Below, one piece after another: positions 8,108-54,419 of a stretch of DNA of 64,000 bases. Position 1 is the stretch's first letter; each line of letters opens with the position of its first letter. Source of the DNA: Caulobacter henricii. GTDB lineage: Bacteria > Pseudomonadota > Alphaproteobacteria > Caulobacterales > Caulobacteraceae. The translations under genes and the position numbers were made by a program. Location: contig NZ_CP013002.1 of the NCBI RefSeq assembly GCF_001414055.1, positions 638,501-702,500 of the forward strand. The letters run 5' to 3'. The notes below the pieces were generated by a model. It saw only the letters and a list, made by a program, of their open reading frames with translations. It had not been told where the DNA came from and did no database searches.

Positions 8108-8238
8108 CCGTTCTCCCCGGCGAAAGCCGGGGCCCAGATTCAGTCTGAGCGTCTGGGGATGATGCGCCTTCGGTCTGAGTTAGGCGCGCCGACCGCTTCG
8201 GGTTCGATCTGGATCCCGGCTTTCGCCGGGAAGAGCGG
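8108..8238. repeat. Class 1 palindromic repeat, copy A (minus orientation)
   Basis: The left end CCGTTCTCCCCGGCGAAAGC and the right end CGCCGGGAAGAGCGG are near-perfect inverted copies about 32 bp long. Each arm is itself a hairpin CCCCGGC-GAAA-GCCGGGG. The inner stretch CTGAGCGTCTGGGGATGATG is the reverse complement of the core of copies B and C, so A is inverted relative to them. It ends 15 bp before the oxidoreductase start. Confidence 0.9.
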
Positions 8239-38982: not shown

Positions 38983-39112
38983 CCGCTCTCCCCGGCGAAA
39001 GCCGGGGCCCAGATCAAACCCTGAGAAGTGGGCGTCTTCACACCGTCCGCAGGCGCATCATCCCGAGACGCTCTGGCTGAATCTGGGCCCCGGCTTTCGC
39101 CGGGGAGAGCGG
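38983..39112. repeat. Class 1 palindromic repeat, copy B (plus orientation)
   Basis: It begins CCGCTCTCCCCGGCGAAAGC and ends CTTTCGCCGGGGAGAGCGG, with perfect terminal inverted repeats including the GGCCCAGAT/ATCTGGGCC inner part. The core carries GGCGCATCATCCCGAGACGC, shared with copies A (inverted) and C. It lies between the epoxide hydrolase and EamA genes. Confidence 0.93.
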
Positions 39113-43373: not shown

Positions 43374-43503
43374 CCGCTCTTCCCGGCGAAAGCCGGGAGC
43401 CAGATCGCGTTCAGAACGGCTGTTGTTCTGGCTCGGTCAGAAGGCGCGCCATCCCCAGACGCCCAGGCTGAATCTGGGCCCCGGCCTTCGCCGGGGAGAG
43501 CGG
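43374..43503. repeat. Class 1 palindromic repeat, copy C (plus orientation)
   Basis: The left end CCGCTCTTCCCGGCGAAAGC and the right end CCTTCGCCGGGGAGAGCGG are inverted with a few changes. The core has GGCGCGCCATCCCCAGACGC, as in copies A and B. It lies between the DUF2855 gene and a convergent hydrolase gene. Confidence 0.92.
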
Positions 43504-44503: not shown

Positions 44504-44632
44504 CCGCTCTCCCCGGCGAAAGCCGGGGCCCAGATCGAACCCACGATCACGTCCGCACGGGCAAGACTTTTGGCGGATCAGCCCCAAACGCACCGGATGA
44601 ATCTGGGCCCCGGCTTTCGCCGGGGAGAGCGG
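44504..44632. repeat. Class 1 palindromic repeat, copy D (plus orientation)
   Basis: The ends are the full consensus: CCGCTCTCCCCGGCGAAAGC at the left and CTTTCGCCGGGGAGAGCGG at the right. The core GATCAGCCCCAAACGCACCG, followed by GATGAATCTGGG, is shared with copy E but not with A-C. It stands 53 bp before the GIY-YIG gene. Confidence 0.94.
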
Positions 44633-44640
44633 ATATCTTA

Positions 44641-44681
44641 TAACCTTAGATTGAATTTAACAGATAATCTCTTTAAGGTTA
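44641..44681 (+). promoter_or_regulatory. 5' leader hairpin sequestering the GIY-YIG ribosome binding site
   Basis: TAACCTTA (44641-44648) and TAAGGTTA (44674-44681) are perfect inverted repeats, with GATT/AATC extending the stem inside. The AAGG at 44675-44678, 7 nt before the ATG, is the only Shine-Dalgarno and lies in the 3' arm, so the folded mRNA would hide it. Confidence 0.6.
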
Positions 44682-44685
44682 CGCC

Positions 44686-44970
44686 ATGATGTTCCACGTC
44701 TACATCATGGCCAGCCGCCGCAATGGTACACTCTACACGGGCTATACCGACGACCTCGGCCGTCGCGTCTCAGAGCATCAGTCGCGTGAACGCGGCTTCA
44801 CCGGGCGATATGGTTGCACAATGCTGGTCTGGCATGAAGCCCATGAGACACGGGAAGGCACTTGGCGGCGTGAGCGCCAGATCAAGGAGTGGCGACGGGT
44901 CTGGAAGCTGCAACTGATCGAGGCTGATAACCCGGAGTGGCGGGATCTGGCTCTGGAGTTTCTGGGTTAG
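44686..44970 (+). CDS. Small GIY-YIG nuclease
   Basis: The 94-residue protein is a stand-alone GIY-YIG domain (COG2827-like). It has FHVYIMASRRNGTLYTGYTD, the GIY and YIG strands reading VYIM...LYTGYT, the catalytic Arg in DDLGRRVSEH and the metal Glu in WRRERQIKEW. It has no DNA-binding extension. Family members cut DNA, but the cellular role of these short forms is unclear. The gene is framed by two inverted class 1 repeats (53 bp before, 15 bp after), and its ribosome site sits in a hairpin. A second ATG follows immediately (44689). Confidence 0.93.
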   Translation: MMFHVYIMASRRNGTLYTGYTDDLGRRVSEHQSRERGFTGRYGCTMLVWHEAHETREGTWRRERQIKEWRRVWKLQLIEADNPEWRDLALEFLG

Positions 44971-44985
44971 AGGACCTCCAGCAAG

Positions 44986-45113
44986 CCGCTCTCCCCGGCG
45001 AAAGTCGGGGCCTAGATTCATCCAGTACGTTTGGGGCTGGCGCGCCTAGGACACAGCCAAATCAGCTACGCTCAGGGTTCGATCTGGACCCCGGCTTTCG
45101 CCGGGGAGAGCGG
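44986..45113. repeat. Class 1 palindromic repeat, copy E (minus orientation)
   Basis: The left end is CCGCTCTCCCCGGCGAAAGT and the right end CTTTCGCCGGGGAGAGCGG. The core CATCCAGTACGTTTGGGGCT is the reverse complement of the copy D core, so D and E are sister copies pointing toward each other around the GIY-YIG gene. Confidence 0.94.
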
Positions 45114-53353: not shown

Positions 53354-53459
53354 AATTCTAGGCGTTAAGCTAAGCACCTTTGGCCACCGAAGGTCCGACT
53401 TGGGTCGAAAGCAGTCTTTGGCTTCGTTCCAGAAAGCGGACGCCCCGCGTCCCGCTAAT

Positions 53460-53604
53460 CCTTAAATCTCCTGGAGGCTGCAGCGTGCCGGTCTGTCCAG
53501 GTTGGTCAAGGACTGGCCTGCGGCCAGCCGCTCCGCGGCGGCGCGGAGCGCCGTCCTTGAGCAACCTGGACAGACCGGCGATCGTCTCGCCGTGAGATTT
53601 AAGG
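53460..53604. repeat. Class 5 large palindrome
   Basis: The outer ends CCTTAAATCTC / GAGATTTAAGG are perfect 11-bp inverted repeats. Inner 27-bp arms (53487-53513 and 53553-53579, beginning GCCGGTCTGTCCAGGTTG) have one mismatch. The loop holds CTGGCCTGCGGCCAG and further GC-rich self-complementary sequence. A single copy is seen in the window. Confidence 0.85.
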
Positions 53605-53653
53605 ATGGCTCCCTTCGGCGCGAAGGCGGGCGCGACGCCCTTCCAATAAATTA

Positions 53654-53788
53654 CCGTCATTCCCGCCCTTGTGGCGGGAACCCCTCGCACCGCCGCAGGT
53701 GCGGGAGAGGCGAAGTGCGCACGCACTTCGCTGGCGCTTCACGTGTCAGCTGAACCAGGGGTTCCCGCCACAAGGGCGGGAATGACGG
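53654..53788. repeat. Class 2 palindromic element, perfect 31-bp ends
   Basis: The perfect inverted ends 53654-53684 and 53758-53788 start CCGTCATTCCCGCCCTTGTG. Each end folds on itself (CCCGCC-CTTGT-GGCGGG). The core contains GAAGTGCGCACGCACTTCGC (a further hairpin) and CAGCTGAACCA, as in the copy at 19328. Confidence 0.92.
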
Positions 53789-53913
53789 GCGGTATGGGGA
53801 TTGGCCGTCCTGAATCCCCGTTTTTCCCAGAATAGACCTAAGCGAAATCAACCGCTTGTAAGAAACTTGATCGCGCCAATCCGACGCGCTGAATCCGCCC
53901 GCATAATCAGTCT

Positions 53914-54110
53914 CACCTGACAGCACGGGAAGGGCGTCCGGCCGGCGACTGAGACGGCTGTCAGGGGTGATCGTGCGGGGCCACCGGTCGGACGAATGTC
54001 CGTGCCGGCGTGCTTAATGCGAGGGCAGGGGACGTAAACCTGCCTATCGGAGGTCTGCCAGGGCCTCCGCCCGTCCGAAGGTTCGCTCCGGGTCCCTCCG
54101 GAATCGGCGT
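53914..54110. other. Candidate structured RNA region
   Basis: Several nested stems occur in a short stretch: CACCTGACAGC (53914-53924) with GCTGTCAGGGGTG (53957-53969); GGAC-GAAT-GTCC inside ACCGGT...CCGG; and GCAGG...CCTGC. No match to tmRNA, RNase P RNA, SRP RNA or common riboswitches was recognised. Function is unknown. Confidence 0.3.
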
Positions 54111-54339
54111 GGCTGCAGCCTCGGGCTCAAGTCCGTCGCGAGGAGGACAAGATCCGGGTGGGGCAAAAGGTTGAACCAGACCTGCGCGCCCCGGCCAGAG
54201 GGATAACGATCACGCGGAGCGTCTGTCTTCGTCGAAACGGTACTTGCACATCCCCTCATCCGGGCGAGGCCCGGACGCTCCGCGACCCTTCCCATCCCCA
54301 TCGCAGCTTCGGCGCGAGGACGCGAAGCTGTGCCTGCCA

Positions 54340-54419
54340 GACTTGCCCCCTCCGCGCCTGCGGCGCTCCTCCCCCGGAGGGGGAAGATGAAGCGCGCAGC
54401 AGCCCGTAGGGGGCCAGTG
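54340..54419. repeat. Class 3 palindromic element, short copy
   Basis: Ends CTTGCCCCCT / AGGGGGCCAGTG and the core CCCCCGGAGGGGGAAGATGA match the element at 5889-6012 in the opposite orientation, with the second G-tract hairpin missing. Confidence 0.75.

Follow-up and report, generated by a model that had tools for sequence, protein, structure and literature searches.

The stretch of DNA analysed here (the window) comprises 64,000 nucleotides of the Caulobacter henricii genome (3.96 Mb; designated G000, with the other genomes numbered likewise). At window positions 44504-45113 it contains a small nuclease gene enclosed by two repeats. The left-hand repeat, copy D (44504-44632, + strand), is a REPIN-like, two-hairpin member of the class 1 family with outward tags CCGCTC; it is followed by an AT-rich leader (44633-44685, +), by an intact gene for a 94-aa GIY-YIG nuclease (44686-44970, +) and by a further two-hairpin repeat, copy E (44986-45113, - strand), in the orientation opposite to D. 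An earlier note on this DNA had described the arrangement, and it is exact to the base: the repeats are 128-129 bp each, 53 and 15 bp separate them from the gene, and the whole unit is 610 bp long with the inverted termini CCGCTCTCCCC...GGGGAGAGCGG. Copies A (8108-8238, -), B (38983-39112, +) and C (43374-43503, +; common to G006) are repeats of equal length and, as was also stated there, lack the gene.

The 94-aa protein contains a GIY-YIG domain (Pfam, E 2.1e-13) in which the catalytic residues are kept; across 26 sequences H31 and E63 are invariant and Y6, Y17 and R27 nearly so. Its structure model is confident (pLDDT 93.5), and the nearest solved structures, by both sequence and fold, are the UPF0213 proteins 1zg2 and 1ywl. 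The leader carries a TTAGATTGA-like motif common to some homologues, at 44645-44656, 29 nt 5' of the start codon, and six homologues, the distant paralogue L033 among them, have the motif at a similar spacing; it is possibly a promoter or leader signal. Its enrichment is only modest: it occurs in 14 of 114 upstream regions as against about 3 in shuffles, 1 downstream and 10 on the reverse strand, and lies 28-30 nt before the start in only 7 of those 14 occurrences.

The hairpin CCCCGGCGAAAGCCGGGG, with up to three mismatches allowed, is matched 12 times in the window where 0.5 matches would be expected, and G000 as a whole contains 25 near-full class 1 copies and 55 arm matches. In an alignment of the 25 copies similarity is 77% within the repeat and falls to 27-29% beyond its ends, which are sharp and common to the copies, and no target duplication is visible around them. 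Most consist of two hairpins, mainly CCCCGGC-GAAA-GCCGGGG or CCCCGGC-GAAG-GCCGGGG, with tags pointing outward and a partly conserved, asymmetric spacer between them; the stem is (T)CCCCGGC/GCCGGGG, and 37 of 50 arms have the tag CCGCTC. As folded single strands, D (z -9.7) and E (z -6.6) are far more stable than their shuffles. The proposal that the core sequences of D and E are nearer to each other than to any other copy was refuted by their ranks among the 25 copies: for D, E comes 15th of 24 over the full length and 16th of 24 over the core, for E, D comes 14th and 20th respectively, and the copy closest to D lies elsewhere in the genome (85%).

At one fixed place, 22 of the 25 class 1 copies carry GANTC, the CcrM methylation site (e.g. 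window 44599-44603), and this could tie the module to the cell cycle. The CIR repeats of Caulobacter also carry GANTC, according to the passages of PMC2229807 used here. Compared by description (Chen and Shapiro 2003; passages of PMC2229807 and PMC10969869), CIR and class 1 repeats are alike in being two-armed and intergenic with a conserved GANTC; CIR repeats are given there as about 110 bp, as against 129 bp for class 1, and those passages mention no nuclease.

A second nuclease gene of G000 (C1:2958621-2958902), 79% identical to the first, is likewise framed by two inverted class 1 repeats. This second complete unit (C1:2958480-2959087) is homologous to the 610-bp unit from outer repeat end to outer repeat end, and on both sides the match stops there; the gene leaders are 53 and 54 bp, and the tails 15 and 7 bp, in the two units. 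In all, six GIY-YIG matches were found in G000: the two genes framed by class 1 repeats, three further small genes and one of UvrC size. The gene at C1:3529794 has a two-hairpin repeat of the CGTCATTCCCGCC type on its upstream side only; nine near-full copies of this repeat were found, one of them the second-class member at window 53653-53788 (+). The gene at 3259803 sits between hairpins of the CGTCATCCCCCGC class, which has only five pattern matches. The third small gene, at C1:3342268-3342492 (L031), beside which two TTCGACAAGCTCAGGATGAGG-type repeats lie inverted to each other on the same side, was excluded from all counts since it is too unlike the query for the cut-off.

Flanking repeats were then scored at homologous genes elsewhere. 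The sample consisted of the search matches together with 60 places more, taken from high in the homologue list, some being omitted, e.g. near contig ends; from 179 loci, 29 repeat loci, three others and those with scores below the cut-off were set aside, giving 121 loci with a homologue; removal of redundancy left 119, and 114 of these extended for 300 bp to either side. Inverted flanks were present at 77 of these 114; the same was true of 556 of 4000 mismatched pairs and of one window gene out of 49. The rate in mismatched pairs is high because different loci have repeat types in common. Related repeats on both sides in either orientation were present at 84 of 113 homologues, as against 333 of 2000 mismatched pairs. 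Flanking of the GIY-YIG gene by repeats of its own class is recurrent, a point that the earlier note had put up for testing, and the contrary outcome that it had named, a nuclease mostly without repeats, was not seen. The repeats are not always inverted: of the 113 loci 47 are inverted, 25 direct and 12 undecidable, the other 29 being without paired repeats. The direct repeats that flank the units of G039 and G031 are 93-94% alike, and the repeats linked to other nucleases carry CGTC or TGTC tags.

Among close homologues in a scan of named genomes, 19 of 27 were flanked (2 skipped; two of the 27 are the G039 and G032 loci again). The UPF0213/YhbQ-like proteins are the nearest in structure, and at distant Bacillota and Patescibacteria homologues paired flanking repeats were found in 0 of 19 cases (4 skipped). 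Homologues in two groups of congeneric genomes are mostly unflanked, with 10 unflanked rows to one flanked and with 0 or 1 class 1 arm per genome. In a protein tree, built on few columns and with many unresolved forks, flanked and unflanked rows are mixed and 25 changes are needed. Ten loci picked from 34 matching records of a plasmid collection had paired repeats in eight cases, which include Neisseria gonorrhoeae (whose record, of chromosome size, is catalogued as a plasmid), S. meliloti, A. lipoferum and N. aromaticivorans; the Photobacterium and Spirosoma loci fell below the cut. The N. gonorrhoeae homologue, 52% identical, lies within an array of CGTCATTCCCGC CGTC repeats, and at this locus (L293) the hairpins start 2 bp past its stop codon as part of the larger array. 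Plasmid p1 of Planktothrix agardhii (L301) has a homologous GIY-YIG gene, accompanied by direct repeats, with an MmeI-type restriction gene on one side and the DISARM gene drmA on the other.

The sequences of nuclease and repeat also vary together. Over 77 flanked loci the similarity of the proteins correlates with that of their repeats (rho 0.54; 0/2000 permutations), and within genomes the correlation is 0.84 over 28 pairs (12/5000). When repeats were permuted only among paralogues, within each of the 11 genomes with more than one locus, the cross-genome rho of 0.531 compared with a mean of 0.448 and a maximum of 0.53 after shuffling (0/2000). The co-variation thus exceeds what species ancestry gives, by a modest but consistent amount.

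The 610-bp unit lies at secA, and this site was compared between relatives. Among the 30 secA loci shown (73 genomes searched), the nuclease is present in G000, G006 and G032; 26 of the 30 have no nuclease within 1.5 kb, and one contig is uninformative. Furthermore, G039 has the nuclease beside secA on another contig and G027 has none at secA. The relatives that lack the unit at secA (the 26 informative loci and G027) include empty sites, which the earlier note had suggested looking for, and the flanks are not identical at the same place in all relatives, an outcome it had named as speaking against its reading. Since the secA unit is common to four species, it is not young. The neighbour opposite secA is one gene in G000 and G006 and another in G032 and G039; the end of a gene of the latter type adjoins secA in G055, where the secA interval contains no class 1 repeat. 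A lone two-hairpin repeat occupies the site in G001 and G041, one weak repeat arm is found there in G051 and G027, and in G032 the piece 3' of the nuclease corresponds in sequence to the right-hand half of G041's lone repeat. Three states of the site can thus be distinguished: one empty, one holding a lone repeat and one holding the nuclease. The secA-linked nuclease of G006 (L246; G006:C164:5652-5933) appears inactive because of an in-frame TAA near its start; 36 repeat arms remain in that genome, which also carries other GIY-YIG genes.

Where G000 has the class 1 repeat of site B, G006 has at the same intergenic site a different GIY-YIG gene adjoining a CGTC-type repeat. A. lipoferum has the nuclease, with its repeats, in the sufB-sufC interval; in the four other Azospirillum intervals examined sufB is followed by sufC with the unit absent, and among 12 Azospirillum rows listed (23 records matched) only A. 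lipoferum covers the gene region. Tens of bases beside this insertion are unaligned, and neither a clean junction nor a target-site duplication was found at sites B, C and L253, at the secA sites or at the Azospirillum site. Two candidate empty sites were rejected: at Sinorhizobium hflX-mazG, strain K101 also has gene sequence, and a stretch of G006 proved instead to differ in length by about 1.6 kb in the surroundings of a repeat.

The earlier note had further suggested testing whether presence of the nuclease follows repeat number, and a strict link of this kind is not upheld because of G027, which has 37 class 1 arms, a GIY-YIG match of UvrC size only and no small GIY-YIG gene. This is the one case seen of the repeat-rich genome without the nuclease that had been named there as contrary evidence. 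In a search for RAYT-type transposases (PF01797), 30 of 120 genomes gave a match, and G000 gave 0 matches at E 0.001.

These features can be compared to several known systems. A 2025 paper on Neisseria (N. meningitidis) reportedly describes the Ssn proteins, GIY-YIG nucleases whose cleavage site is a repeated sequence in single-stranded DNA, and is said to report an effect on transformation. Ssn nucleases reportedly share a GIY-YIG domain with its catalytic residues, which the 94-aa protein has, many genomic copies of a cognate sequence, which exist here and which the 94-aa nuclease presumably recognises, and site-specific cleavage of single strands, which is predicted for it. A small GIY-YIG nuclease paired with a genomic repeat is common to both, and the N. 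gonorrhoeae homologue among CGTCATTCCCGC repeats may be an Ssn member; the Ssn work reportedly concerns single-strand cleavage and transformation and not discrete nuclease-repeat units with empty sites. The nuclease of the 610-bp module is probably of the Ssn kind. REPIN/RAYT systems (REPtrons), in the descriptions used here, likewise have inverted, non-autonomous REP pairs beside the gene of a cognate enzyme, with several classes per genome; the enzyme here differs in being a GIY-YIG nuclease, and no Y1 tyrosine transposase was found in G000.

The CGTC-tagged REPs are, according to a 2013 survey, mostly HH dimers of Alphaproteobacteria, apparently without a dedicated transposase, and S. meliloti, A. 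lipoferum, N. aromaticivorans and the Neisseriae are named among their carriers (Di Nocera et al. 2013, PMC3733652). The survey found no tyrosine transposase gene flanked by CGTC repeats, and "GIY" is absent from its main text. By that description class 1 repeats resemble CGTC REPs in their HH dimers, outward tags, four-base loop (4-5 in the CGTC definition) and CCA-like tail, and S. meliloti, A. lipoferum, N. aromaticivorans and N. gonorrhoeae all show flanked GIY-YIG genes here. The class 1 tag is mostly CCGCTC where CGTC or TGTC/CCTC tags are described, and the class 1 stem lacks the complementary AT with which the stems of CGTC REPs, and those of the other nuclease-linked classes, begin. 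On this subject PMC12306157 cites, in the part relevant here, the 2013 survey only. Among the open-licence articles searched, judged by titles and the openings of abstracts, no association of GIY-YIG genes with REPs was recognised.

We consider the 610-bp stretch to be, with somewhat better than even likelihood, a nuclease-REP module, in which a GIY-YIG endonuclease is combined with its cognate REPIN-like repeats and the nuclease-free copies are non-autonomous relatives. The layout and the association of nuclease and repeat are firm, a discrete and mobile nuclease-REP module is well supported, and we infer that the nuclease most likely drives the spread of the repeats. Since the partnership recurs with matching repeats in many bacteria, a tiny mobile unit is suggested. 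The proposal of a nuclease-bearing mobile unit made in the earlier note is thus supported in part, by recurrent flanking, the second unit, the empty and occupied sites and the lack of a RAYT match, and loses the argument from sister copies D and E. In such a module the nuclease would recognise the tag and hairpin of a repeat made single-stranded, at the replication fork or during DNA uptake, and cut it; host repair or recombination between repeats might then copy or remove the nuclease-bearing segment, gene loss leaving a lone repeat and gene gain producing repeat-gene-repeat. The module would behave like a homing endonuclease directed at the members of its own repeat family. Against this reading stand G027, the 29 of 113 homologues with no paired repeats, the age of the secA unit and the failure to find a clean junction or target-site duplication; moreover, GIY-YIG enzymes are not known to join ends.

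Alternatively, the nuclease may be a resident enzyme of the cell that acts on the repeats in hairpin processing, DNA uptake or recombination control; the repeats would then spread by other means and the gene would stay near its targets for regulation. The persistence of repeats in G027 without the nuclease, the retention of the secA unit in four species, the homologues that are unflanked across whole groups and the transformation effect reported for Ssn are all consistent with such a role. However, the two complete units, the empty and occupied sites and the several nuclease-repeat pairs per genome look like selfish modules, and a resident enzyme is rather unlikely. The nuclease could also be passive cargo, since recombination between scattered repeats would move anything enclosed by them; the 93-94% alike direct repeats of G039 and G031 are as gene conversion or recombination would give, and the lone secA repeat of G001 and G041 fits deletion between repeats. 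Passive carriage should, however, involve many gene families, and only one of the 49 window genes has paired inverted flanks; furthermore, nuclease and repeat co-vary, and we regard this explanation as distinctly improbable.

Mobilisation by a RAYT or IS200-type transposase encoded elsewhere, with the GIY-YIG gene incidental, would follow the known REP/RAYT logic, and PF01797 is after all matched in a quarter of the genomes searched (30/120); it was rejected for G000, which has no such match, and taken with the lack of tyrosine transposase genes flanked by CGTC repeats in the 2013 survey (PMC3733652) this makes it very improbable. The hairpins are terminator-like and intergenic, and they might be neighbours of the gene by chance. 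This was rejected on the controls for hairpin excess (12 versus 0.5), flanking (77/114 and 84/113), co-variation and distant homologues (0/19), together with the end-to-end match of the paralogous units, and its probability is negligible.

The nuclease-REP module has a wider bearing, because the 2013 survey left unsettled what enzyme is responsible for the spread of CGTC-tagged REPs, common elements in Alphaproteobacteria and Neisseria. It is quite possible, though at somewhat less than even odds, that the dedicated enzyme which the CGTC REP superfamily seemed to lack is a small GIY-YIG nuclease, and that hairpin cutting together with host recombination moves the repeats and the nucleases' own genes. 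If so, this would be a mobile system without a DDE or HUH/Y1 transposase, and, at about 350-610 bp, one of the smallest autonomous units. A nuclease co-varying with the repeats between which it sits, with empty sites in relatives, makes the question of the spreading enzyme directly testable and points to a GIY-YIG-based mobile module.

Other dispersed repeats are present in the same DNA. Window 53390-54400 contains several, in addition to the class 2 repeat at 53653-53788, with matches at many places in relatives. Another repeat, about 120 bp long, occurs in G006 (L248:6256-6376) and at eight places in G000, e.g. C1:200806-200921; it is 91-98% alike between G006 and G000 and so is far better conserved than class 1.
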